Of a DNA stretch of 64,000 bases, positions 17,823 to 30,851 are shown piece after piece. The notes beneath the pieces are model-generated. The model worked only from the letters and a program-made list of their open reading frames with translations. It was not told where the DNA came from and ran no database searches. The stretch is from assembly GCA_020723485.1 (NCBI GenBank), contig DYIU01000002.1:405543-469542 (forward strand), in the 5' to 3' direction. Origin of the DNA: Acidimicrobium ferrooxidans. GTDB taxonomy: Bacteria > Actinomycetota > Geothermincolia > Fen-727 > Anoxymicrobiaceae. A program made the position numbers and the translations under genes. Numbering within the stretch: position 1 is the stretch's first letter; the number at the start of each line of letters is the position of its first letter.

Positions 17823-19040
17823 CTACTTGATCATGCTGATGACCTTGAATATCGGCAGGTAGAGCGCGACGACTATGATGCCGACGCTGCCCCCGAGGAA
17901 TACGATGAGGATAGGCTCGAGCATGGAGGTGAGACCATCCACAGCGTTGTTGACCTCGGTGTCGTAGAATTCGCTGACCTTGTTGAGCATGACGTCCAGG
18001 GCACCGGTCTCCTCGCCTATCGCTATCATCTGGGTGACCATGGGAGGGAACACGTTCGCTTCCTCGAGTGGCTTGGCGATGGTCTGGCCTTCCTTGACGC
18101 TGTCGCGAACGTCATCGAGTGCCCTGGTTATCACGGCGTTGCCGGTTGTCTCCCCCGTGATCTCGAGCGCTCCCAGTATGGGCACGCCGGAAGAGAGCAG
18201 TGTCCCGAGCGTCCTCGAGAACTTGGACATGGCGGTCTTGTGGAACAGCACCCCCACCACGGGGAGCTTCAGCTTTATCTTGTCGATCACCAGGCGACCC
18301 TTGGCCGTTGCCTTGAAGCGTCGGAAGAAGATCACCGAGCCGATGATGACGGCAAGGAGCACCAGGCCTCCCCATCCGCCTATGAAATGGCTGATATTCA
18401 CAAGGACCTGGGTGAACGTCGGCAGAGCGCCGCCCATCTGCTCGAACATGGCAGCGAAGCGAGGGACCACGAAGATTATCATCGCGGAAAGGAGGACAAT
18501 GGTGATTCCGAAGACGGCTATCGGGTAGGTGCTGGCCGATTTCACCTTGGCGCGGATCTCGGCTTCGCGCTCCATCTGGTTGGCCACGCGGAGCAGGACG
18601 TCGTCGAGCATTCCACCGAGCTCGCCCGCGCGGACCATGCTCACATAGAGGCTGTTGAACGCCTCGGGGTGCTTGCCCAGCGCCTCGGAAAGCGAGCGCC
18701 CGGCTTCGACCTCGCGCTGGCAATCGGTGATAACGTCGGCGAGCGTGGTGGATTCTGTCTGCTGGGCGAGGATGCTCAGGCACTTGATGAGGGGAAGGCC
18801 CGCGTTGATCATCGTGGCGAACTGGCGGGTGAAGATCGTCACATCCTGAACCCCCACCTTGGCTCCGAAGATGTGGATCTCCTTCTTGGCCATGGAGACC
18901 TTCTGCTCGTCTATGGAGACGACGAAGTAACCCATCTGCCTGAGCTTGCCGGCGAGGACGTCCGCGTTGTCCGCCTCGAGCGAGCCGGTTATCTCGCGGC
19001 CTGTCCTGTCCCGGACGGTGTAGGTGAATGACGCTGGCAC
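17823..19040 (-). CDS. pilC: Type IV pilus inner-membrane platform protein PilC
   Basis: A protein of 405 residues of the GspF/PilC family. An N-terminal region (about 1-65, FTYTVRDRTGREITGSLEADN) precedes two T2SSF repeats, each ending in membrane helices (about 170-190, 210-240 and 375-400), with the family signature TLLSSGVPILGALEITGETTGN near residue 270. PilC couples rotation by PilB or PilT to pilin insertion or removal. GTG 19040 has AGGAGGG 8 nt upstream. Its promoter region at 19085-19121 separates it from pilT. Confidence 0.95.
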   Translation of the reverse strand: MPASFTYTVRDRTGREITGSLEADNADVLAGKLRQMGYFVVSIDEQKVSMAKKEIHIFGAKVGVQDVTIFTRQFATMINAGLPLIKCLSILAQQTESTTLADVITDCQREVEAGRSLSEALGKHPEAFNSLYVSMVRAGELGGMLDDVLLRVANQMEREAEIRAKVKSASTYPIAVFGITIVLLSAMIIFVVPRFAAMFEQMGGALPTFTQVLVNISHFIGGWGGLVLLAVIIGSVIFFRRFKATAKGRLVIDKIKLKLPVVGVLFHKTAMSKFSRTLGTLLSSGVPILGALEITGETTGNAVITRALDDVRDSVKEGQTIAKPLEEANVFPPMVTQMIAIGEETGALDVMLNKVSEFYDTEVNNAVDGLTSMLEPILIVFLGGSVGIIVVALYLPIFKVISMIK

Positions 19041-19193: not shown

Positions 19194-20270
19194 CTATCGC
19201 CCGACGAGCCTCCTGAAGTCGTCCTTGTTGTGCGCCCGGGCGAGCCCGGTCTCGTAAGTTATCTGCCCGGCCCTGTACAGAGCGGCGAGCGAGGCGTCCA
19301 TCGTCTGCATCCTGAGCTGACCCCCCGACTGCATGGCGGAATATATCTGGTGGACCTTGGCGTCGCGGACCATGTTGCGTATGGCGGAGGTGGCGATCAT
19401 TACCTCGACCGCGGGGACCCTGGCCCTGCGGTCCTTGGTCGGAACCAGCTGCTGAGTGACTATCGCCTGTATGGTCGAAGCGAGCTGAAGGCGGACCTGC
19501 TGCTGCTGGAAGGTCGGGAAGACGTCTATTATGCGGTCGATGCTCTGGGGCGCGTCCTGGGTGTGAAGGGTCGCGAAGACAAGGTGGCCCGTCTCGGCGG
19601 CGGTCAGCGCGGTCGATATTGTCTCGAGGTCCCTCATCTCGCCCACCAGGACTATGTCGGGGTCCTGGCGCAGCGCGTACTTGAGCGCGTTGGCAAAGGA
19701 GTGTGTGTCCGACCCCACCTCCCTCTGGTTTACTATGCACTTCTTGTGGAGGTGGAGGAACTCGATGGGGTCCTCGATGGTTATGATGTGCTCCTCGCGG
19801 GTGGAGTTGATCAGGTCCATGATGGCGGCGAGGGTGGTCGACTTGCCCTGCCCCGTCGGGCCGGTGACGAGGATGAACCCCCTCGGCAGGCGCGCGAACT
19901 CTTTTATGACCAGCGGCAGCATCAGCTCCTCACAGGTCTTGATGCGGTAGGGGATGATCCTGAAAGCCGCGCCGACGCTGTTTCGCTGGAAGTACGCGTT
20001 GACCCTGAACCTCGCGCTGCCGGGGACGGAGTAAGAGAGGTCGAACTCGAGGTTGGTCTCGAGCGACTCGCGCTGACGGGCCGTCAGGATGCTGTAGACC
20101 ATCTCGCGCGTGTCGTTGCTCATCAGCTTGGGAAGGTCCATCCTCTGAAGCACACCGTTTATGCGAAGAACGGGCGGGACCCCGACCGTTATGTGCAGGT
20201 CGGACGCCCCCCGCTTGATAACTTCCTCGAGAAGCTCGTTGATGTCGAGCTTCACTCCCTGCGTGGCCAT
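19194..20270 (-). CDS. pilT: Type IV pilus retraction ATPase PilT
   Basis: A hexameric ATPase that powers pilus retraction and hence twitching and DNA uptake. The 358 residues show the PilT N-terminus with RGASDLHITVG (20-30), Walker A GPTGQGKST (137-145), the Asp-box IITIEDPIE (162-170), Walker B DPDIVLVGEMRD (203-214), the His-box TGHLVFATLHTQDA and the C-terminal AIRNMVRD motif typical of PilT and absent from PilB. It is 45 nt downstream of pilB. Confidence 0.96.
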   Translation of the reverse strand: MATQGVKLDINELLEEVIKRGASDLHITVGVPPVLRINGVLQRMDLPKLMSNDTREMVYSILTARQRESLETNLEFDLSYSVPGSARFRVNAYFQRNSVGAAFRIIPYRIKTCEELMLPLVIKEFARLPRGFILVTGPTGQGKSTTLAAIMDLINSTREEHIITIEDPIEFLHLHKKCIVNQREVGSDTHSFANALKYALRQDPDIVLVGEMRDLETISTALTAAETGHLVFATLHTQDAPQSIDRIIDVFPTFQQQQVRLQLASTIQAIVTQQLVPTKDRRARVPAVEVMIATSAIRNMVRDAKVHQIYSAMQSGGQLRMQTMDASLAALYRAGQITYETGLARAHNKDDFRRLVGR

Positions 20271-20314: not shown

Positions 20315-22006
20315 CTACATCACGACTCTCAGCACTTCCTCTATCGAGGTCAAGCCCTGCCTGACTTTCACGAAACCGTCCTGGCGAAGGGTCTTCATGC
20401 CCTTCTCCTGGGCCGCCTGGCCCAGCACGTGGGCGGTGGAAACGTTCACGATGAGCTTCTCGATCTCTTCGTCGAGAGCGAAGACCTCGTACAGCCCTAT
20501 GCGTCCGCGGAAGCCGGTGCTGTTACAATACGGACAACCTCCCGGCTTCGCCTTGAACAGCTGTACCTCCCCCTCATCGCCTTGGGAGAAGCCTACGCTG
20601 TCGAGATATTCCTGCTCGTAGTCCGCCTCCTGCCTGCAACGGGTGCAGAGCCGGCGGGCCAGTCTCTGGCTGACCACGCTGTCCACCGCGGACGCGATGA
20701 GGAACGGCTCGATGCCCATCTCCGTCAGCCGGGTTATGGCCGACGGCGCGTCGTTTGTGTGCAGTGTGCAGAGGACCAGGTGGCCGGTGAGGGCGGACTC
20801 GATGGCCATCTTCGCGCTTTCCGCGTCTCGGACCTCCCCGATCATGACTATGTCCGGGTCGCATCTGAGTATTGACCTGAGGGTCGCGGCGAAGGTCAGC
20901 CCGACCCTGGTGTTCACCATCACCTGGTTGAGCCCCTTCATCTGGTACTCTACGGGGTCCTCGACCGTGATGACGTTGACCTCGCGGCGGTTGAGCTCCT
21001 GGAGCGCGGCGTACAGCGTCGTGGTCTTTCCGGAGCCCGTAGGCCCGGTTACGACTACCGTACCGTAAGGCTTGGTGAAAGACTCGCTGAAAGTCCCCAG
21101 GGGGGCGGGTTCCATGCCAAGGTCCTTGAGGCCGATGAGGATAGCGGACCGGTCGAGGATACGGAGGACGATCTTCTCCCCGTGGACGGTGGGAAGCGAA
21201 GCCACGCGCAGGTCGACCACCTGGCCCCCGGCCTCGAGGTTGAAACGCCCGTCCTGAGGGACGCGGCGCTCGGCTATGTTCATGCTGGCCAGGATCTTTA
21301 TCCTGGAGACGAGACCGGGGTGTATCTTGCGGGGCGACCGCCTTATCTCGTGGAGCACCCCGTCGATGCGGTAGCGGATGCGCACGTCCTTCTCCCCAGG
21401 CTCTATGTGTATGTCACTCGCGTGCTCCTGGACCGCCTCGGTGATGAGAAGGTTGACGTACTTGACTATCGGGGCGTCCTCTCCAGCCTCCTTGAGGTCC
21501 GCCTCGTCCTCCTCTTCGTCCTCGTACTCCAGGGCGGGCATCTCGTCGAGTGTCTCGTCCATGTCGACGGCGCTGTGGAGGTAGCGGTCTATAGCCCCCT
21601 TGATGTCGTCCCTGGTGCTGACGACAGGGAGGATATCCATTCCGGTCATGATCCTCAGGTCGTCGAGGGCGAAGACGTTGGTGGGGTCCGCCATGGCGAC
21701 CAGAAGCTTGCCGTCCTGGAACTCGATGGGCACGACCGTGTACCTCCGGGCGAGGTTTGCGTCCACCAGGTTGGCGGCCTCCGGGTCGACCGCGTACGAG
21801 GTCAGGTCGACGTAGCGTATCCCTATCTGTTCGGCGAGCACCGACGTGAGCTGGCCCTCGGTGAGCATCCCCTTGTCGATGAAGACGCGGCCCAGGGACT
21901 TGCCCGAACCCTGCTGCTCGGCCAGCGCTTCCTCGAGCTGGGCTTCGTTTATAAGGTTGTTCTCAAGAAGAAGCCGCCCCAGGCGGTCCTGTTTCGGTTT
22001 CTCCAT
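20315..22006 (-). CDS. pilB: Type IV pilus extension ATPase PilB
   Basis: A protein of 563 residues. The N-terminal MshEN-type domain (about 1-150, with LGRLLLENNLINEAQLEEAL and GYV/IGIRYVDL elements) is of a kind that binds cyclic di-GMP in some family members; whether it does here is untested. The ATPase core has SDIHIEPGE, Walker A GPTGSGKTT, Walker B DPDIVMIGEVRD and TGHLVLCTLHTNDA. A tetracysteine zinc site is present: CTRC near residue 467 and CPYC about 35 residues later. An acidic linker (EYEDEEEDEADL) joins the halves. It lies between aroE and pilT on one strand. Confidence 0.96.
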   Translation of the reverse strand: MEKPKQDRLGRLLLENNLINEAQLEEALAEQQGSGKSLGRVFIDKGMLTEGQLTSVLAEQIGIRYVDLTSYAVDPEAANLVDANLARRYTVVPIEFQDGKLLVAMADPTNVFALDDLRIMTGMDILPVVSTRDDIKGAIDRYLHSAVDMDETLDEMPALEYEDEEEDEADLKEAGEDAPIVKYVNLLITEAVQEHASDIHIEPGEKDVRIRYRIDGVLHEIRRSPRKIHPGLVSRIKILASMNIAERRVPQDGRFNLEAGGQVVDLRVASLPTVHGEKIVLRILDRSAILIGLKDLGMEPAPLGTFSESFTKPYGTVVVTGPTGSGKTTTLYAALQELNRREVNVITVEDPVEYQMKGLNQVMVNTRVGLTFAATLRSILRCDPDIVMIGEVRDAESAKMAIESALTGHLVLCTLHTNDAPSAITRLTEMGIEPFLIASAVDSVVSQRLARRLCTRCRQEADYEQEYLDSVGFSQGDEGEVQLFKAKPGGCPYCNSTGFRGRIGLYEVFALDEEIEKLIVNVSTAHVLGQAAQEKGMKTLRQDGFVKVRQGLTSIEEVLRVVM

Positions 22007-22044: not shown

Positions 22045-22908
22045 TTAGATGTGCGCCTCCTCGAGTGCCCGGAGAAGCGCCACGCGCATTACCTCAACCG
22101 GCGCCTCGAGCCCCGTCCAGATCTCAAAAGCGGCCGCCGCCTGGTAGAGCAGCATCCCCTTTCCGTCCATGACCTGCGCCCCTCGCGCCTCCGCCTCCTG
22201 CAGCAGCGGCGGCTGGTAGAGCGAGTAGTTGAGGTCGCAGACGAGCTGGTTCTTGTTGAGCAGCGAAACCGGCACCCGCAGGTCCCCGTTGAAGGTCGTG
22301 AGCGGCGTCGCGTTTATGATCACGTCGGACTCCGCGACCACGATATCGTAATTGTCCTCGGGGGAAAGCCACGAGACCTCTATGTCGGGCGCGCTCTTCA
22401 CGATTATCTCGGCCAGCTGCCTGCTCCGCTCCGGGGACCTGTTGACTATCACGATGGACCCGCAACCGGCCAGTGCGAGGGAGACAGTCACGCTGCGCGA
22501 GGCCCCGCCCGCTCCCAGCACCAGCACCCTGCGCCCCTTCACCTCGTAAGAGAGGTCGCGGACCAGGGCGGTGTAGAATCCGCGCCCGTCCGTGTTATAG
22601 CCGATCAGCCTTCCCTTATCGATGAGGATCGTGTTCACTGCGCCGACCGACTCCGCGAACATTGCGACCTCGTCGAGCAGGGGGATGATGTCCGTCTTGA
22701 ACGGCATCGTGATGTTGACGCCGGTGAAGCGCAGAGCCTTGATCCCGTCGACCGCCTGCTGGAGGAAGCCGGGGTCGACCGGGAGAGGCACGTAGCACCA
22801 GTTCAGTCCGAGGTAATCGAAGGCGGCGTTATGAATGACGGGCGAGAGCGTATGCTCGAGCGGGCTGCCTATGATTCCGACCATCCTGGTGGTTCCGTCG
22901 ATATGCAT
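22045..22908 (-). CDS. aroE: Shikimate dehydrogenase
   Basis: Reduces 3-dehydroshikimate to shikimate with NADPH. The 287 residues include the substrate-binding GSPLEHTLSPVIHNAAF (about 15-31), the catalytic Lys in NITMPFKTDI (about 64-73), NTD in YNTDGRGF, and the nucleotide-binding GAGGASRSV (about 132-140). The other aro genes of this window are 13 kb away, so aroE is embedded alone between the GTPase gene and pilB, 48 and 38 nt away respectively. Confidence 0.95.
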   Translation of the reverse strand: MHIDGTTRMVGIIGSPLEHTLSPVIHNAAFDYLGLNWCYVPLPVDPGFLQQAVDGIKALRFTGVNITMPFKTDIIPLLDEVAMFAESVGAVNTILIDKGRLIGYNTDGRGFYTALVRDLSYEVKGRRVLVLGAGGASRSVTVSLALAGCGSIVIVNRSPERSRQLAEIIVKSAPDIEVSWLSPEDNYDIVVAESDVIINATPLTTFNGDLRVPVSLLNKNQLVCDLNYSLYQPPLLQEAEARGAQVMDGKGMLLYQAAAAFEIWTGLEAPVEVMRVALLRALEEAHI

Positions 22909-22956: not shown

Positions 22957-23505
22957 TCATCCCGCCTCCGCCTCCTCCACATCCGCCGCCCGCTCCAGCA
23001 CCCTCTCCAGCAGGGCCAGGAGGACGTTCTTTACGTCGTTTACCTTCCTTGCGTCACAACTGACGACATCGATGTCGCTGCGGCCGAAGACGAGGTCACG
23101 CACCGCCTCGGGCCTCATGCAGTCCCTGCGGTCAGCCCTGGTGAGGCCTACTACGAACGGGGCCCCCGACATCCTCTCGAACGCCTCTATTATCTTTCCG
23201 GCTTCCACAAACGTCGCCGGGTCCGTCCCGTTCACCAGCACCACGTACCCGAGCATGCCTTCACTCAGTATCTCCCACATGAAGTCGAAGCGCTGCTGCC
23301 CGGGTGTGCCGTAGAGGTGGAGCACGTCCCCGTCCCTCAGTGTTATACGGCCGAAATCCATAGCGACCGTGGTGCTCGACACCTCACCCGACGAGATGGT
23401 GCTCCGCTCGGTGGATACCACTTCTATCTCGCTTATCGAACGGATGAAGGTGGTCTTCCCCGAGTTGAAAGGTCCGCCCACGAGGATCTTGAAAGCCCGC
23501 GCCAA
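22957..23505 (-). CDS. Small Ras-like GTPase (MglA/CvnD-like)
   Basis: A protein of 182 residues with a G1 loop GGPFNSGKT (10-18), switch Thr45/46, a G3 region reading YGTPGQ (65-70) instead of the Ras DxxGQ, and a G4 motif TRAD (122-125) in place of NKxD. These features match the actinobacterial conservon D-type GTPases and relatives of MglA. Such GTPases switch state with the help of roadblock proteins and set polarity or regulate membrane processes. Two roadblock genes lie upstream in the same run, pilB-pilT downstream. It is 21 nt after the DUF4388 gene. Confidence 0.85.
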   Translation of the reverse strand: MARAFKILVGGPFNSGKTTFIRSISEIEVVSTERSTISSGEVSSTTVAMDFGRITLRDGDVLHLYGTPGQQRFDFMWEILSEGMLGYVVLVNGTDPATFVEAGKIIEAFERMSGAPFVVGLTRADRRDCMRPEAVRDLVFGRSDIDVVSCDARKVNDVKNVLLALLERVLERAADVEEAEAG

Positions 23506-23526
23506 GCACCCTCCCGCATCAGGCCG

Positions 23527-26500
23527 TCACTTGTTCTTCAGGTCATTAATAATCTTCTTAACCGACCCCTTGTCCACCTCTTTTCCCTTCGAGCGGCCGG
23601 CCCGGCCATTCTTCTTCTTCTCCTCTTCCACGGGCTGCGTCTTGTCTACCGCTACCTTGTGCTTCTTCTGCTGTACTCCGCCCGCCAGTTCGAGCAGTTC
23701 CTGCTCCAACTCGAAAGTCTCCAGGTCCACGAGGCTGGTGCCTTTACCGCGCTTGCCGCTGACCTTGAGAGACCCCATCAGCCCGCGGTCGTCCTCGACC
23801 TCCTCCTCCTCCTCCTCGTAGAGAGACTCCTCCTCGACGGCTTCAGCCTCGACCTCGAGCTCGGGTTCCTCTTCGACGACCTGCTCGGCGGCCGCCTCGA
23901 CCTGCCCGGCCTCCACCGCATGTCCCAGGGTGATGTCTCTCAGGTCCTCCATGTGGTCGTAGTCGAACTCGGTCTCGGCCGCCGCGGCATGCGCCTCGGG
24001 CAGTGGGGCGGCCTCCTCATCCGTTTCGTCCCAGTCCGCAACCGTCTGAGCGTCCGCGGCGCCGGACGTGACTATGGGTTCCTGCTCGTAAGTCTCGATC
24101 GTCCCGGTCTCGATGTCCGCCAGGTCATCAGCGATCGCCGGTTCCTCGTCGGCGCTCCGGCCCGCCAGGACCTCCCCGGCTTCTCCCGCTTCGTCAAGGG
24201 CCGTCCCGTACACCTGGAAGGCCTCGTCGCCGGGACCCTCTTCCGCGGCCGACCGCTTCTCCGGGGACTCGGGCGGCGCGACATTCAGCTCTTCCGCCGA
24301 CCTCAGCCTTCCCGCGTCCAGCGGGATGATTTCGGCGCCTGCATCCTCGAGCCCCACTATCTCCAGCACTGACTCGGTCTCCGGCTCGTCGTCCGCCTGG
24401 AAAGCGGGCGCCTCCGGGACCTCACCCACTTCAGCGCTCAGCGCCGCGGTCTCGTGGTCGTCAGGCCGTTCCGCCTCTGACTCCTGGAGAACGGGGTCCG
24501 CCCGCCCCAGGACCTCTTCGATGACCGGGACCTCCAGGTCCTCCGCGATGGAGAGGATCTCGACCACGGTGGACGTCACTATCGGTTCAGGATGTTCGAG
24601 GACCACTTCGACGTCGGCCTCGCCCCTGATGCTGCTGAAGCTTATTACCTGCCCCGCGGGTTCGCCTCCAGCGACCTGCGCGTCTGCGGCCTGCGCCCGG
24701 GAAGCGGTCCCCTCGAGCTCGGCTTCAGTATGTTCTGCGGCGGCCGGCTCCACCTCGAACTCCGGCGCGACCTCTCCCTGAGGCGGGCCGGCGTCTCGCG
24801 ACTCCTGGATCGCGTAGGTCGGCTGGTCGAAGGCCAGGAGCTCCTCCCTGCTCAGGTCTCCCCTGGCGGGAGGATTGACCTGGATAAGCCTTTCTATGTC
24901 CTCCTCGGTCGGCAGTGACGCGTCGTCGATGGCAGCGGACTCGTCGATGGTCGGTACCAGGGGGACCTCCTCGGCGGCCTGAACGGCATGCTCGACGACC
25001 GCGTCCGTCTCCACGGCCTCTTGCACTTCATCCTCGCCCTCGAGCGCCGCTTCCTCCGCGTCCTCGAGTTCAGCCGCCTCCGTTTCGACTTGCTCCTCTT
25101 CGGTTGGCTCCTCGACACCTGTCCCGGCTTCCTCGACACTCGCCGGCTCATCCGACAGGGGCTCTGCAGCCACGGGCTCCCCGGCGGCCCCTCCCGCGAC
25201 AGGACTACCCGCGATTGCCTCGAGCGCGCCGGCCATTATGTCGTCCGCGAGCGCGGGCTCGTCCAGCAGCTCCGGCCTCGGTTCCACTTCAACGCTTTCA
25301 TCCAGAGCGGTGGGCTCGGTATCCATCACTTCGCTCGCCGGTTCTCGGGCCTCCGCGTGCTCGGAAGCCGTCTCATCCTCGAGCTGTGCGGCCTCCTCTC
25401 TCGCAGCGGCGAAGGCATCCAGCTCGACCACCTCCGCCTCCGGCTCGGCGCCTTCTTCCTCCCGGGCTGCCTTCTGTGCCCTGCTGCGCGACGGCTGAGA
25501 GGACCGGCCCCTCAACCTCGTAAGGTGCCCGGCCCACTCGAGCGGTATGTCTTGAGGCTCCTCGCTCAGCGCGGCGGATTCCTCCTGCCCGTCGGAGCCG
25601 ACAATCTCGAACTCGCGCTCCTCCTCGCCTTCGAGCTCGCCGCGGTCGGCCTGCTCTATGAAAGCCCTTCGCTCCTCGGTCTCGCGGTATATCTCACTGT
25701 CGCCGAAATCCCGCAGCGCGAGCGACTTGTAGTAGTCGACCAGGCTCTGGCCCGGCGCGGGCGAATCGTCGGGACCCGATTCGTCGGGTGGCTCCTGTTC
25801 CCCGGCAACCTCGACGGCCTCTTCCTCGACCGCCAAGGCCTCGCTCTTGACGGGCTCCTCTTCGAGCGTTTCCTCGGCCTTCTTCCCCCTGCGGCGCAAT
25901 TTCGAGCGCCGCGGGGCCTCCGGTGTCGCGTCTTCTACCGCGACCTCCTCCACGGTCACGCCCTCGTCCGCGTCATCACCGAAGCTGATGACCTCGTCTT
26001 CGGACTCAGCAGCTTTCTTCTTCGACCTGGCCATCCGCTTGCGCCGCTTCGCCCCTTCGTCGGTCTCCCCGCCTGCTTCCTCGACAGCGACTTCTTCCTC
26101 CGCCCCTTCAGGCTCGCGTTCCGTGTCGGGGGCCGCGGCCGCTTCTTCCTCCAGCATGACCCCGACCTCGTCCTCGAGGCCCGCGGCCGCTCCGGTGACC
26201 TCCGCGGGCTCGCTCGCCAGCACCACCAGGCCCGCCGTCACAAGGCCGTAGAGCGCCTTGCAGGTGACGAGCGCGCTCTGGCCCGACCTGGAGATTATGT
26301 CGCGGACGGTGCTCTCACCGTCCACGTGGTACATGACGAGCCACTCCTCGCTCGTCAGGTTCATCTCGCTCGCGTCCTTCCCGGGAACCTTTGTCACCTT
26401 GAAGACCGCATCCAGGGACGGCACCTTCTTCTCTATCTGGAACCATTCGTCGAGACGCCTGCTGCCCTCCATGATAAGGTCCTCGGTGCTCATGGAGAGT

Positions 26501-26922
26501 CCTATGTCCTCTTCAGGAAATATCTGGTCCGGGTCGAAATCGAAGTCGCCCTCGTTCCAGCGCAGGAGGTTGAAGACCGCATCCCTGATGTGCTCCTCCA
26601 CGAAGACCTCGAGGGACTCCCTGCCGAGGTGGCCGAGCTCAACCAGGATGTTTCCAATGCGCTGGTCGCCATGGGTGGTGTTCTGGAGTTCCAGTGCCTC
26701 GTCGAGCTGTTCCTGCGTTATCATCCCGGCCTCGATGAGGCGCTGTCCGAGGGGAGCACGCTTCCAGTTATGGGTGGCGAAGAAAACGTTACCGTTGCGG
26801 AAGCAGACGTAGCCCATCATATCGCCGTTGGCGATTACCAGGGTTCCGTTCTTCTTCCCGAAGTGTATCAGCTGAAACAGGTCGGGAAGGCTGAAGTCCC
26901 TCAGGGCTCCCTTCAGCGGCAT
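23527..26922 (-). CDS. Giant acidic DUF4388 protein
   Basis: A protein of 1131 residues. The first 110 form a DUF4388 domain (MPLKGALRDFSLPDLFQLIHFGKKNGTLVI), followed by a helical part containing LGQRLIEAGMITQEQLDEALELQ, which resembles the PilB N-terminal fold, and a winged-helix-like stretch (about 185-240). From about 250 to 1080 the chain is low-complexity, dominated by Glu, Ala, Asp, Val and Pro, and almost certainly disordered. The last 50 residues are Lys-rich (GRAGRSKGKEVDKGSVKKI). DUF4388 proteins often neighbour roadblock/GTPase pairs. The long tail could be a scaffold or spacer; its function is unknown. It lies 15 nt after a roadblock gene. Confidence 0.8.
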   Translation of the reverse strand: MPLKGALRDFSLPDLFQLIHFGKKNGTLVIANGDMMGYVCFRNGNVFFATHNWKRAPLGQRLIEAGMITQEQLDEALELQNTTHGDQRIGNILVELGHLGRESLEVFVEEHIRDAVFNLLRWNEGDFDFDPDQIFPEEDIGLSMSTEDLIMEGSRRLDEWFQIEKKVPSLDAVFKVTKVPGKDASEMNLTSEEWLVMYHVDGESTVRDIISRSGQSALVTCKALYGLVTAGLVVLASEPAEVTGAAAGLEDEVGVMLEEEAAAAPDTEREPEGAEEEVAVEEAGGETDEGAKRRKRMARSKKKAAESEDEVISFGDDADEGVTVEEVAVEDATPEAPRRSKLRRRGKKAEETLEEEPVKSEALAVEEEAVEVAGEQEPPDESGPDDSPAPGQSLVDYYKSLALRDFGDSEIYRETEERRAFIEQADRGELEGEEEREFEIVGSDGQEESAALSEEPQDIPLEWAGHLTRLRGRSSQPSRSRAQKAAREEEGAEPEAEVVELDAFAAAREEAAQLEDETASEHAEAREPASEVMDTEPTALDESVEVEPRPELLDEPALADDIMAGALEAIAGSPVAGGAAGEPVAAEPLSDEPASVEEAGTGVEEPTEEEQVETEAAELEDAEEAALEGEDEVQEAVETDAVVEHAVQAAEEVPLVPTIDESAAIDDASLPTEEDIERLIQVNPPARGDLSREELLAFDQPTYAIQESRDAGPPQGEVAPEFEVEPAAAEHTEAELEGTASRAQAADAQVAGGEPAGQVISFSSIRGEADVEVVLEHPEPIVTSTVVEILSIAEDLEVPVIEEVLGRADPVLQESEAERPDDHETAALSAEVGEVPEAPAFQADDEPETESVLEIVGLEDAGAEIIPLDAGRLRSAEELNVAPPESPEKRSAAEEGPGDEAFQVYGTALDEAGEAGEVLAGRSADEEPAIADDLADIETGTIETYEQEPIVTSGAADAQTVADWDETDEEAAPLPEAHAAAAETEFDYDHMEDLRDITLGHAVEAGQVEAAAEQVVEEEPELEVEAEAVEEESLYEEEEEEVEDDRGLMGSLKVSGKRGKGTSLVDLETFELEQELLELAGGVQQKKHKVAVDKTQPVEEEKKKNGRAGRSKGKEVDKGSVKKIINDLKNK

Positions 26923-26937
26923 GTCATACCTGCCAGT

Positions 26938-27336
26938 CTACTCGTACTCCACCTGTAAGTGCGACTCGATTATCGCCGCGATGTCCTTCGCGGCGTTCCT
27001 GATGTCATACAGGACAAGCCCCAGCTTGCTGCCGCGCTTCACGATCGCGTTGAGCACGGCGTCCTCGCCCGCGGCCAGAAGGAACACATAGCCCTGTGTG
27101 CCCTCGACGAACACCTGGGCCAGCTCCCCGCGCCCCAGCTCCGATGCGGTCCTCTCGCCAAGGCTCAGAAGTGCGGCGGACATGGCACCCAGACGGTCTT
27201 CCTCGTACCCATCGGGGAGGGCGGACGCCATGACGAACCCGTCCATGCTGACCACCGCGGCGGCGTCGATATCCGTCGATTTTTCCAGGAGCTGCCGGAG
27301 AGCGCCCTGCAGCTCGTTTTCCTGGCCAGCATCCAA
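26938..27336 (-). CDS. Roadblock/LC7 domain protein 1
   Basis: A protein of 132 residues from TTG 27336. AAGGAGG (27345-27351) stands 8 nt before this TTG, which decides against the longer GTG at 27372 that has no ribosome site. One roadblock fold covers nearly the whole chain: AAAVVSMDGFVMASALP, a central helix ending LGERTASELGRGEL, AQVFVEGTQGYVFLLAAG, and C-terminal helix AAKDIAAIIESHL. Roadblock proteins act as GTPase-activating or exchange partners of MglA-like GTPases. The GTPase gene is two genes downstream. Confidence 0.85.
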   Translation of the reverse strand: MDAGQENELQGALRQLLEKSTDIDAAAVVSMDGFVMASALPDGYEEDRLGAMSAALLSLGERTASELGRGELAQVFVEGTQGYVFLLAAGEDAVLNAIVKRGSKLGLVLYDIRNAAKDIAAIIESHLQVEYE

Positions 27337-27405
27337 GCCAGCAACCTCCTTGCCCCCTGCGATGGCACCCACGGCCTGCCTCGCCTGCAGATCTGAACGG
27401 GCGCC

Positions 27406-27777
27406 TCAGATGATCTCCGAGAGCCGCTGGGCGCAGCGGCTCACCTCCAGGAGGGTCATGCCCATCTTGGCCTGATGGTCGACCATGCAGGCCAGTATCG
27501 CGGCCTCATTTACCTTGACCACTACCAGGTCGCCTTCGTCCCCTCTCAGGTAGAGCTGGTCTATGTCGCCCCTGGAAAGGTCGCACGCGACCTTCTCACC
27601 CGCTGAGACGAGCGTTGACGCAGTGGCGCTCAGCATCTCCTCGTCCAGGGAGTCCGAGAGGTCCGATGCGAGCGGCATTGCATCAGAGCTTATGAGCACG
27701 GCCGCCTCGACGCCGGAGCACTCTGCCCTGAGCGTCCTCAACATCTCCAGCATCATCTGTTCCCTTGAACCCGGCAA
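27406..27777 (-). CDS. Roadblock/LC7-like protein 2
   Basis: A protein of 123 residues from TTG 27777, with GAGGAG 5 nt upstream. Its fold order parallels the first roadblock protein: EAAVLISSDAMPLASDL, then LSATASTLVSAGEKVACDLSRGDIDQLYLRGDEGDLVVVKVNEAAILACMV, and a C-terminal helix. It is the first gene of the GTPase/pilus run and probably pairs with the other roadblock protein as homo- or heterodimer. An ATG at 27756 is an alternative start, with AAGGGA just upstream. Confidence 0.8.
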   Translation of the reverse strand: MPGSREQMMLEMLRTLRAECSGVEAAVLISSDAMPLASDLSDSLDEEMLSATASTLVSAGEKVACDLSRGDIDQLYLRGDEGDLVVVKVNEAAILACMVDHQAKMGMTLLEVSRCAQRLSEII

Positions 27778-27847: not shown

Positions 27848-27865
27848 GAATATCGCCTGAAAGAA

Positions 27866-28147
27866 TCAGATAATTTTGTTGGCCGGCCTTGAGCGCCTGA
27901 TGGCGATCTCCACGTCCAGCGGCCTGAAATCCTGAGCGATCGTGATGGCTGCCGCCCTGCAGAACTCTACGCAGGTATAGCAGGCGATGCAGTTCTCGAC
28001 GTGTGACACGCGTACGTCCGCGCCCTCGCCGGATATGCTGAATATGGACCGGTCGTTGCCGGGCCCGCTCTGGGGGCAGAGCTCCAGGCAGTCGCCGCAG
28101 TGCACGCAGCGCTCCCGCATAATCCGCATCTCGCCGGCATTTGCCAT
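27866..28147 (-). CDS. 2[4Fe-4S] ferredoxin-like protein of the hydrogenase cluster
   Basis: A protein of 93 residues from ATG 28147, supported by AGGAG 7-8 nt upstream. Two cluster motifs are complete: C14-x2-C17-x2-C20-x3-C24 and C53-x2-C56-x2-C59-x3-C63. The second cluster is followed by AAAITI, as in polyferredoxin folds. An insert of about 28 residues separates the motifs. It starts 10 nt after the large-subunit stop and probably passes electrons to or from the hydrogenase. Confidence 0.88.
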   Translation of the reverse strand: MANAGEMRIMRERCVHCGDCLELCPQSGPGNDRSIFSISGEGADVRVSHVENCIACYTCVEFCRAAAITIAQDFRPLDVEIAIRRSRPANKII

Positions 28148-28157
28148 GCAATCGCTC

Positions 28158-29525
28158 CTAGTGTGTGCCGCACGGTACGCACGGGCTGAAGGCCCTGAGC
28201 GCGAACTGCAGGTTCTGCGCCGCACCCTCCGAGAGCTCCATCCCTCCGACCGTTTTCCGCGCGCACCCTGTCAGGTGTTGGTTGAGCATCGCGAAGTTGA
28301 ACTGCAGGGGGCTCACGATCCTGTAGGAGGTGATGAAGCCCTCGGCGTCCATCCGGAGACTGTGGACGAGCGTGCCGCGGGGCGATTCCACGACCGCCAT
28401 CCCCTCCGAGTCAACGAGCTTGGGCCGCACGCAGGGTTCCATCACCTTCGGTCGCTGCTCGAGGAGGAGCAGGGCGTTCTCCCAGGCCCTTATCACCTCG
28501 AGGATCAGCGCCACCAGGAACAGAAACTCGCGGTCAAGGGGATGTCCCCAGATCTCGGTGGTCCTGGCCCTCTCCAGCTCGGCCCAGGGCGCCTGGGTGT
28601 CGAAGCCGAGGTTGACGCGCGCGAGCGGGCCCACGAGCACCGGCCCCATGTCCCCTACCGCCGCCTCCACCAGGTAGGACCACGGCACCGGCTTCTCCAC
28701 GATGGAATCGTAGAAGTCGCGTGCGGGCATCTCCCTGGTCTCCCCCTGCTGGAAAGGAGCGGCCGTTACGGTCTCACCCACCAGCGCCTGGCGCCCGGCC
28801 ACGGTCGAAGCCATGTAGTGTCCCCTGAACGGCATGGCACTCTCTATCATCTGGGCGTTCCGCTTGGTGATCATCTCGACAAGGCGGAGGATCTCGCGCA
28901 GTTCGTGTTCGCACCCGCTGAGCAGGACGGAGGCCTTGGTGCAAGCCGACCAGTCAGGCAGGTAGCTGACACCCCCGGGGACGACTACAGCCGGGTGCAC
29001 CGGCAGGCCGGCCAGCATGTCTAGCGCCTCCGAAAAAGCCGCCAGGACTGTCGTCAGCCTGTGTACCGTTTCGTGTTCGACAGCGTAGATCCCCACGACG
29101 TTCCTGACCGCCGGGTCGGACATCGGCAGCACGAAGTCGGGGAGCGCCAGGTAGGTGATGTTAACGAGGTGGCTCTGTCCAAGCCACAGCCAGGCAAGCA
29201 ACTCGCGGAACCATCCGGCGGCCTTCGGGACGTCGGTGGAGCAGCCGTTCTCTACCGCGATGCAAGCCGCCAGCTGGTGAAACGGCCCGCACGCCCCGCA
29301 GATCCTCGAAAGCATCGACGGCACCCTGAATGCCGGCATGCCGAGCACCATCTGCTCGAAGCCGCGGTACTCGAGGGCCCTGAACCGCGCCTCGCCGACC
29401 TGCCCTTCGCCTGAGATCGACACCTCGATATCGGCACGGCCCATTACGCGCGTGAGGGGGTAAAGGCGCACCCTGCCGCCCCCAAGGTCCGACGCGTCCG
29501 TGAGTCCCACCCCGGTGTCAACCAC
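28158..29525 (-). CDS. [NiFe]-hydrogenase large subunit, group 3-like, without C-terminal extension
   Basis: A protein of 455 residues from GTG 29525, overlapping the small-subunit stop by 8 nt. The first nickel motif is RICGACGPFHQLAA, with C76 and C79. The second, C449-x2-C452, stands in SPCVPCGTH at the extreme C-terminus. The canonical motif is DPCxxCxxH, so the Asp is replaced by Ser, and His455 is the last residue. Most large subunits are made with an extra C-terminal peptide removed by a maturation protease; this one already ends at the usual cut site. Overall layout and the partner resemble MvhA/sulfhydrogenase-type group 3 enzymes. No hyp maturation genes are in the window. Confidence 0.9.
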   Translation of the reverse strand: MVDTGVGLTDASDLGGGRVRLYPLTRVMGRADIEVSISGEGQVGEARFRALEYRGFEQMVLGMPAFRVPSMLSRICGACGPFHQLAACIAVENGCSTDVPKAAGWFRELLAWLWLGQSHLVNITYLALPDFVLPMSDPAVRNVVGIYAVEHETVHRLTTVLAAFSEALDMLAGLPVHPAVVVPGGVSYLPDWSACTKASVLLSGCEHELREILRLVEMITKRNAQMIESAMPFRGHYMASTVAGRQALVGETVTAAPFQQGETREMPARDFYDSIVEKPVPWSYLVEAAVGDMGPVLVGPLARVNLGFDTQAPWAELERARTTEIWGHPLDREFLFLVALILEVIRAWENALLLLEQRPKVMEPCVRPKLVDSEGMAVVESPRGTLVHSLRMDAEGFITSYRIVSPLQFNFAMLNQHLTGCARKTVGGMELSEGAAQNLQFALRAFSPCVPCGTH

Positions 29526-30369
29526 CCGCCACCTTCTCTCCCACCCTGGCCCTGGTCACGGGGTCGCGCCTGGTGAACATGTACAAGCTCTTGAGCATCG
29601 ACATCATCTGCCCCGCCGTCTTCTCCTCCCTGTTTCCCGTTGTAAGGGAGACGAACTTGACCATGTCGGAGAACATCGAATGGAGCTGGGAAGAGAGCAC
29701 CATCGCCGAGGGGCCGCGGCATCCTATGCACACGGCACCCTTCGAGGTACAGACCGCGTGGCATCCTCCGCGGGTTACCGGGCCCAGGCAGAGCAGGCCC
29801 CTGTTGAGCAGGCAGAGCATGCTCGGGACCCCGCAGCCCGGATGGTGGTTCCAGGCCTTCACTCCCTTATGCTCCACACCCCTGGTGCACTCGGAACACA
29901 CCGTGCCGTCAAAGCTCGGGTGCCCGTAACCCTCGAGTACGGACCTGAGTGCCTCGAATATCAGGTTCGGCGGAGGGGGGCATCCGGGGATGTACAATTC
30001 TATATCGATGCGGCTGTCCAGCGGCTGCACCTCGTCCAGCAGTCCCGGTATCAGAGCTTCGCCGGTCTCCGGCCGGGGGGGCTCGATGTCCCTCGCACCG
30101 GGTACGCCGCCGTAGACGGCGCAGGAGCCCACCGCAATCACCTTCCGCGAAGTCCTGCCTATCTCGTCGGCTATCTCGAGCTCCTCATAGTTCCTTATGG
30201 CCCCGGTCGCGAGCACCACGTCGGACGGAGATATCGACCTCGCGTCAACCATGTAGTTCGAGAACGAGATGTTGTTGTCGCAGAGCATGGCGATAAGGGG
30301 CTCCCCCGCCAGGAAAAGCGACTGGTGGCAGCCACCGCAGGAGCTGAGGGCGACCGTGGCGATGTACAT
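29518..30369 (-). CDS. [NiFe]-hydrogenase small subunit, group 3-like
   Basis: A protein of 283 residues from ATG 30369, which overlaps the upstream stop as TGATG. It has no Tat signal, so it is cytoplasmic. Proximal cluster ligands are visible as C11-x2-C14 (LSSCGGCHQSL), VGSCAVYGG and PGCPPPP. Further Cys groups in the C-terminal half (VCSECTRG, HPGCGVPSMLC, GGCHAVC, CIGCRGP) supply medial and distal clusters. This is the MvhG/group 3 pattern. It carries electrons from the NiFe site of the large subunit, probably to the ferredoxin encoded downstream. Confidence 0.92.
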   Translation of the reverse strand: MYIATVALSSCGGCHQSLFLAGEPLIAMLCDNNISFSNYMVDARSISPSDVVLATGAIRNYEELEIADEIGRTSRKVIAVGSCAVYGGVPGARDIEPPRPETGEALIPGLLDEVQPLDSRIDIELYIPGCPPPPNLIFEALRSVLEGYGHPSFDGTVCSECTRGVEHKGVKAWNHHPGCGVPSMLCLLNRGLLCLGPVTRGGCHAVCTSKGAVCIGCRGPSAMVLSSQLHSMFSDMVKFVSLTTGNREEKTAGQMMSMLKSLYMFTRRDPVTRARVGEKVAGG

Positions 30370-30851
30370 CAGCTTCTCAGCTCCATCATGACCTTGCACG
30401 CCCGCGGCCCGCAGTGTTCCACCCTGAGGTCGACCCGCCTGTCAATCATTGTCTCCATCGAACCGGCAATGTACCCGTGAAGCGCCTGGCACAGCATGCC
30501 TCCCGGGGTGGAGCCCGCGCTCCTTGCCAGGGTCAGCAGAGGACACTGTGTGAACACCAGGCAGGCCGAGAGGACGTCGCCCTCCTCAGTCCAGTCGCCC
30601 TGCGCCGCCTGCTCTCGCCACGTCTCGACCTGCCAGACCTCGTCCCCATCGTCGAGGACACACCTCAGCGCCTGCAGGGCGTCGGCCGTCCGGCGCCGCA
30701 TCCCGCCCTCGGCCAGACCGGCGTCGCGGCCCGCCTGGTACATCAGGGCGGGGGCCCCCTTTCCGAGTACGTTCTCTCCTGCCGTGTCCAGGATGAACGA
30801 GAGCTTCATGAGACTCCTGAGCTGTGCCTCTGTCCGCTCCGCCCTCGCCAA
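30369..30851 (-). CDS. Cys-containing V4R-like protein heading the hydrogenase run
   Basis: A protein of 160 residues. The first half (KLSFILDTAGENVLGKGAPALMYQAGRDAG, about 17-46) resembles the start of V4R (4-vinyl-reductase/small-molecule-binding) domains. The second half has Cys in FTQCPLL, GGMLCQAL and EHCGPRACKV, a spacing also seen in the metal- or Fe-S-binding C-terminal part of SufR-like regulators. No helix-turn-helix is obvious. Coupling to the hydrogenase small subunit by TGATG suggests a sensor, assembly factor or redox partner. I do not recognise a specific family with confidence. Confidence 0.45.
   Translation of the reverse strand: MARAERTEAQLRSLMKLSFILDTAGENVLGKGAPALMYQAGRDAGLAEGGMRRRTADALQALRCVLDDGDEVWQVETWREQAAQGDWTEEGDVLSACLVFTQCPLLTLARSAGSTPGGMLCQALHGYIAGSMETMIDRRVDLRVEHCGPRACKVMMELRS

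Follow-up and report, generated by a model that had tools for sequence, protein, structure and literature searches.

How a small GTPase reaches the motor of a type IV pilus is unsettled even for Myxococcus, in which neither MglA nor SgmX is known to contact PilB directly (PMC11580455). The same question is raised by a locus of Acidimicrobium ferrooxidans (an uncultured member of the Actinomycetota; assembly GCA_020723485.1, contig DYIU01000002.1, positions 405,543 to 469,542 of the forward strand, a stretch of 64,000 nucleotides (nt) referred to here as the window), in which genes encoding two roadblock proteins, a giant DUF4388 protein of the PATAN type and a Ras-like GTPase stand in one run with the genes of the pilus motor. 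Comparative analysis indicates that this module is very probably a Ras-like molecular switch controlling the pilus motor, in an arrangement kept in relatives across the phylum. The switch, its roadblock partner, a domain of a PilB-binding type and the motors are thus encoded in one compact run in Gram-positive-type bacteria, where the control of pilus polarity has been little studied, and because the minimal set comprises four or five proteins, the question lends itself to direct in vitro tests.

All genes from roadblock-1 to pilC are on the minus strand, in the order roadblock-1, roadblock-2, DUF4388, GTPase, aroE, pilB, pilT and pilC, with intergenic gaps of 33, 15, 21, 48, 38, 44 and 153 nt (15 to 48 nt as far as pilT); with a ferredoxin-like open reading frame (ORF) that precedes roadblock-1, the minus-strand run to pilC extends from 28151 to 17823. 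The roadblock genes encode proteins of 123 amino acids (aa) (roadblock-1, 27406 to 27777, with a TTG start and a possible alternative ATG start 7 codons inward) and 144 aa (roadblock-2, 26938 to 27372), identified by Robl_LC7 matches in Pfam (5.6e-15 and 7.7e-18; two matches of 55 and 65 bits, cut-off 23) and by alignment, and in the case of roadblock-2 also by solved relatives. The DUF4388/PATAN protein of 1131 aa (23527 to 26922; Pfam 5e-34, 117 bits, cut-off 25) is followed by the GTPase of 182 aa (22957 to 23505; Pfam Ras-like/ATP_bind_1, alignment and Foldseek) and by the shikimate dehydrogenase gene aroE (22045 to 22908; Pfam). The type IVa pilus motor set is complete on this single strand and comprises the extension ATPase PilB, which has an MshEN domain of its own (20315 to 22006; Pfam and NCBIfam), the retraction ATPase PilT (19194 to 20270; TIGR01420, 487 bits, cut-off 319, and Pfam) and the platform protein PilC (17823 to 19040; Pfam T2SSF). 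These coordinates and the Pfam and NCBIfam matches agree with a preliminary description of the locus with regard to gene order, the single strand and the small gaps. The window's genome contains a single DUF4388 protein, two roadblock domains and one Ras-like GTPase of this type, all of them at this locus.

Regarding the conservation of the arrangement, the folded head of the PATAN protein (residues 1 to 240, 26203 to 26922, minus strand; AF2 model with pLDDT 86 and pTM 0.69, and alignment) was used as the query in a search of 296 genomes across Actinomycetota, and for 80 PATAN loci the neighbouring genes, in regions of at most 20 kb, were labelled with profiles made from the window genes. Candidatus Solincola and Candidatus Geothermincola are the named relatives in which the PATAN head was found. 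Within the class of the window, gene order is near-constant. Distant families still have the trio of roadblock, PATAN and GTPase genes directly before pilB-pilT-pilC (for example in loci L062, L063, L064, L069, L121, L129 and L130); in L056, L057, L074, L108 and L132 the trio is flanked by a pilB gene on either side, and aroE is located farther upstream. Adjacency to pil genes in near relatives says little, because the conserved stretch (alaS-ruvX-mltG-aroE-pil-aroC) also holds aroE, mltG, ruvX and alaS, which like aroC are housekeeping genes. The trio adjoins pilB, pilT and pilC also in loci where aroE has moved, and linkage that survives such rearrangement says more than adjacency in near relatives; aroE itself, whose place varies among relatives, is a metabolic passenger. 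The neighbourhood, which the preliminary description had proposed to survey, is thus non-random across the phylum, with the trio beside the motor genes. Each of the 59 sampled genomes that have the full PATAN head also has PilT, and the head was detected in none of the 84 genomes lacking PilT (Fisher p 1.8e-10, kinship ignored).

Each pilus- or GTPase-linked PATAN copy was scored for the presence of an adjoining roadblock gene and of a neighbouring GTPase with P-loop and GTPGQ motif. Both were present at 36 loci and neither at 20, with no discordant locus, and on the PATAN tree roadblock presence and GTPase integrity change ten times each, always together. The most telling loci for this loss in step are those in which a catalytically broken GTPase gene persists with no adjoining roadblock gene, in about six lineages (L055, L061, L066/L068, L110, L073/L120/L125 and the fused L117/L136); in the genomes of L055, L066 and L068 no roadblock domain was found anywhere.

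Further loci have lost or exchanged the switch and kept PATAN at the motor. In L138, L140 and L071 both the GTPase and the roadblock genes are gone and PATAN alone stands before the motor genes. In L058, L059, L061 and L118 the interval between PATAN and pilB is filled by genes for a CheR-TPR protein and a CheY-like receiver (REC), with a larger REC-containing protein encoded downstream, and these loci are a chemosensory version of the same locus; L061 retains a dead GTPase beside CheR/CheY. PATAN is therefore the constant element and the input is exchangeable, and the replacement of the GTPase by CheR/CheY suggests that the same adaptor connects PilB to various signalling systems as a general plug. 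Gene fusions were also detected: roadblock and PATAN form one protein of 676 aa in L122, followed by an intact GTPase and then the pil genes, and in L117 and L136 PATAN is fused to a degenerate GTPase half (profile E about 5e-10), which Pfam does not detect.

Regarding the output of the module, PATAN regulators of Synechocystis set pilus polarity and bind PilB1 or, in the case of PixG, PilC as well (PMC12288463, PMC10519157), and in Myxococcus MglA-GTP recruits PilB via SgmX, FrzS and SopA by unknown contacts, with two PATAN proteins co-occurring with the MglA-PilB system (PMC11580455). On the basis of these two precedents, PATAN is read here as a motor-facing adaptor and the GTPase/roadblock cycle as the switch. 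The Synechocystis PATAN-REC regulators (PixG, PixE and others) have a CheY-like receiver fused to PATAN, whereas in the window a GTPase and its roadblock partner, encoded separately, provide the input, and a long tail is attached to PATAN. As we infer the contacts and the direction of regulation in the window's system, PATAN would serve as output adaptor by docking on PilB (the extension motor), on PilC or on both, the roadblock partner or partners would cycle the GTPase, and the GTPase would bind PATAN in one nucleotide state and thereby determine if, when or where the motor is engaged. Control of the pilus motor by the module, exerted through PATAN, is probable in view of the phylum-wide linkage, the co-occurrence with PilT, the loss in step, the fusions and the retention of PATAN beside pilB, together with the published binding of PATAN to PilB1 and PilC, the restriction of the switch parts to this locus in the window's genome and the MglA-like fold of the GTPase; confidence in any particular contact within the module is lower.

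In alignment the GTPase has the motifs GPFNSGKT (G1), GTPGQ (G3), TRAD (G4) and DAR (G5), and its G2 region (TTVAMDFG) contains Thr-Thr with no intrinsic Arg beside the G2 Thr. The modelled fold is closest to MglA (Foldseek top matches 6h17, 6izw and 3t1t, E 1e-9). The roadblock protein MglB is the GTPase-activating protein and guanine nucleotide exchange factor of MglA. The window's system is like the Group 1 MglA/MglB system of Myxococcus xanthus and Thermus in combining a Ras-like GTPase with a roadblock partner; there, the output is type IV pilus extension via recruitment of PilB, and two roadblock paralogues (MglB and MglC) occur as well. It differs in having GTPGQ instead of TVPGQ, in the missing Arg, in the position of its genes inside the pil motor operon and in PATAN as the effector where SgmX, FrzS and SopA serve in the known system. 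According to the published classification, MglA proteins of Groups 2 to 5 have a GTPGQ G3 motif and Thr in place of the G2 Arg, with additional G4 and G5 traits in Groups 2 and 3 (PMC4316618), and the window GTPase fits this pattern, its G4 and G5 motifs being of the kind described for those two groups. Identity with Group 1 MglA, as defined in the same paper (PMC4316618), was rejected, as the window and its relatives have GTPGQ and not TVPGQ and the G2 Arg is lacking.

Roadblock-2 is the copy that adjoins PATAN throughout the phylum and keeps an Asp-Gly pair (SMDG) such as that noted in coupled MglB proteins (PMC4316618); its best solved relatives are 7f8m, 9jue, CvnB5 (3leq) and MglB. Roadblock-1 is a paralogue confined to the window's class in which Asp-Ala (SSDA) replaces Asp-Gly, and the pair recalls, by analogy, MglB and MglC of Myxococcus. 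A third roadblock gene is located upstream of the other two in Solincola and Geothermincola relatives (L042:3429, L043:16006 and other Solincola-type loci).

The head model contains helices at residues 58 to 120, a DUF4388 domain with a helical insertion as expected of PATAN. The insertion itself, four helices with two 24-residue half-motifs at residues 57 to 110 (26593 to 26754, minus strand), matches the NCBIfam model NF053729 for the MshE-related cyclic di-GMP (c-di-GMP) motif (49.5 bits, cut-off 38), as do 18 of 19 relatives, and its top match in Foldseek is MshE with c-di-GMP (5htl; root-mean-square deviation 1.2 Å over 56 columns, probability 1.00, E 0.034). The PilB-N-like helices of the preliminary description are thus real and MshEN-related. 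Judged by profile and fold, the insertion is homologous to the four-helix c-di-GMP module of MshEN, the N-domain of PilB, and differs from that of MshE and PilB in being embedded in PATAN and not fused to an ATPase; as a copy of the PilB N-terminal helical bundle, it would be the likely motor-facing surface. The fold search with the whole head gave nothing at E below 0.001, and besides MshE only weak winged-helix matches were obtained (including GATOR1/SEA subunits, E 0.06 to 0.4), which were left uninterpreted. PATAN-like N-terminal helices are also encoded elsewhere in the window's genome, in a second PilB/GspE-like ATPase (a 567-aa frame; G000:C5:833561-833722).

The half-sites of the insertion bear on whether the module could be mainly a c-di-GMP sensor, in which the PATAN insertion would be the nucleotide-binding site, with binding adjusted by the GTPase/roadblock pair, as would suit the profile match above a curated cut-off and the 8 GGDEF domains of the genome. 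In nearly all pilus-linked PATAN copies the Arg of half-site I is replaced by Pro, Ser or Ala (Arg in 1/48), and the Arg of half-site II is kept in 30/48; the pattern is reversed in PilB from these loci, with Arg/Lys/Gln at half-site I and mostly Ser at II (20 copies with a readable motif pair). The window's PATAN has Pro at half-site I and, where half-site II normally ends in Gln, a His, departing from the Arg/Gln pattern of MshEN, and the spacer between the half-motifs is 7 residues compared with 5 in MshEN. Because similar replacements abolish c-di-GMP binding in the N-domain of Thermus PilF (PMC12002112), no such binding is claimed for the window copy, for which it appears doubtful; with these key residues replaced, a role as a simple c-di-GMP receptor is unlikely, and on the same grounds the module has little probability of being mainly a c-di-GMP sensor. 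A further idea, to which a very small probability is given, comes from the complementary half-sites, since in the window's relatives PilB keeps Arg/Lys/Gln only at half-site I and PATAN keeps Arg mainly at II: the insertion could mimic the PilB N-domain and join the MshEN ring of the PilB hexamer, forming a composite c-di-GMP pocket gated by a Ras-type switch, and if so PilB would be the meeting point of GTPase and c-di-GMP signals.

It is also unlikely, though somewhat less so than a c-di-GMP sensor, that the linkage reflects conserved chromosomal order only and that the GTPase module has an unrelated job, for example in cell-envelope or polarity control: alaS, ruvX, mltG, aroE and aroC, clearly not pilus genes, do share the stretch, but the module follows the motor genes even with aroE elsewhere, lies between two pilB genes at the five loci given above, has its full PATAN head restricted to PilT genomes and contains in PATAN an experimentally known PilB ligand of other organisms. 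Conservons of Streptomyces (CvnABCD), with which the preliminary description had also drawn a parallel, belong to the same phylum and combine roadblock and small GTPase proteins, and a conservon-like signalling operon for transcription or development, placed beside the pil genes, would suit the GTPGQ motif, the unusual G4 and the DAR motif, which resemble Group 2/3 MglA as described in the literature (PMC4316618), as well as the likeness of roadblock-2 to CvnB5. The DUF742 protein (CvnC, PF05331) is absent from the window's genome, however, no CvnA-type histidine kinase is among the adjoining genes (which are [NiFe]-hydrogenase genes, aroE and pil genes), no DNA-binding partner was found, and PATAN is present instead. 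Conservon identity was therefore rejected, the parallel does not hold and a conservon-like role is very improbable, while the pilus-control switch proposed in the same description is favoured by the linkage, the fusions, the loss in step and the published PATAN-PilB1 binding. The best reading of the sequences is that the system would work like MglA/MglB, yet it belongs neither to the Group 1 MglA systems nor to the conservons.

Several points weigh against control of the motor through PATAN. The full head is missing from 153 of the 212 pilus-bearing members of the phylum and is thus not required for pili as such, and the loci were collected by similarity to the window's own PATAN head, which favours a pilus-linked subtype. 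The concordance of roadblock and GTPase is strong in count and modest in statistics, with only 4 independent pairs on well-supported branches, all agreeing (sign test p 0.125), compared with 10/10 on the whole tree, and it includes two loci classed by hand (L132, with GLPGQ, as intact, and copy 2 of L111, where a roadblock after the GTPase was counted); where both genes are absent, joint deletion of neighbours can mimic dependence.

Regarding the remainder of the PATAN protein, residues 241 to 1131 (23530 to 26202, minus strand) form an acidic, low-complexity tail by composition and Uversky score and score as disordered. The acidic and disordered character given in the preliminary description stands, and the length of about 890 residues slightly exceeds the 830 stated there. 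Tail length ranges from about 60 to 1200 residues among relatives, and the giant size is a peculiarity of the window's class; conservation within the tail lies in its C-terminal helix. The tail is unconserved apart from two short motifs detected by conservation, FELEQELLELAGG (23677 to 23715, minus strand; phylum consensus xxELxxLxG) and the C-terminal amphipathic helix VDKGSVKKIINDLKNK (23530 to 23577, minus strand; phylum consensus hhxRhIDGhKxh), of which the window family has the variant SVKKIIDDLKKM that is missed by the strict pattern. With this pattern the helix was detected in 18/28 pilus-linked copies with intact GTPase, in 5/7 with dead GTPase and in 3/10 with no GTPase, but in 0/20 unlinked copies without intact GTPase and in 6/496 other genes. 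The presence of the terminal helix is thus tied to the pilus operon rather than to the GTPase, and this suggests that the helix docks at the pilus base or membrane; the long acidic tail would serve as a flexible tether, with the small terminal helix binding a component of the pilus base (or the membrane).

Gene neighbourhoods of PATAN with MglA/MglB were reportedly noted by Makarova in 2006. In the available part of a later survey PATAN genes are described as occasional neighbours of MglA or MglB genes of Groups 1 and 5, and there the linkage to pilBTC, the loss in step, the fusions and the MshEN identity of the insertion are not described (Wuichet and Sogaard-Andersen, 2014; PMC4316618). A literature search of incomplete coverage found nothing on DUF4388 together with roadblock proteins or on pili in Thermoleophilia, and on pili, roadblock proteins and GTPases in Actinobacteria it yielded only PMC4316618. 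Within that coverage, which is not proof of novelty, no account was found of the operon linked to pilBTC, of the loss in step, of the fusions, of the terminal helix or of the relation of the insertion to MshEN.

Two further features of the neighbourhood were observed. Many distant relatives have, between the GTPase gene and pilB, a gene for a small protein that terminates in a V-x-L-x-F-x-DGS domain and whose N-terminus is often hydrophobic (L056:11751-12530, L057:11519-12343, L062:12691-13143, L064:7242-7670 and L074:6719-6937); the two examples tested had no Pfam match, and the protein was not found in the window. Upstream of the roadblock genes, the window has a pair of genes for the large and small subunits of a [NiFe]-hydrogenase, with the ferredoxin-like ORF and a conserved protein of 160 aa (together 27861 to 30851, minus strand); the best matches of the pair are to the F420-non-reducing type, with every score below the NCBIfam cut-offs. 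Where the contig extends that far, nearly all members of the class have the hydrogenase pair, the ferredoxin-like ORF and the 160-aa protein directly before the roadblock genes, and in the distant lineage L061 the pair likewise lies upstream of PATAN. It is conceivable that the GTPase switch receives a redox or H2 input.

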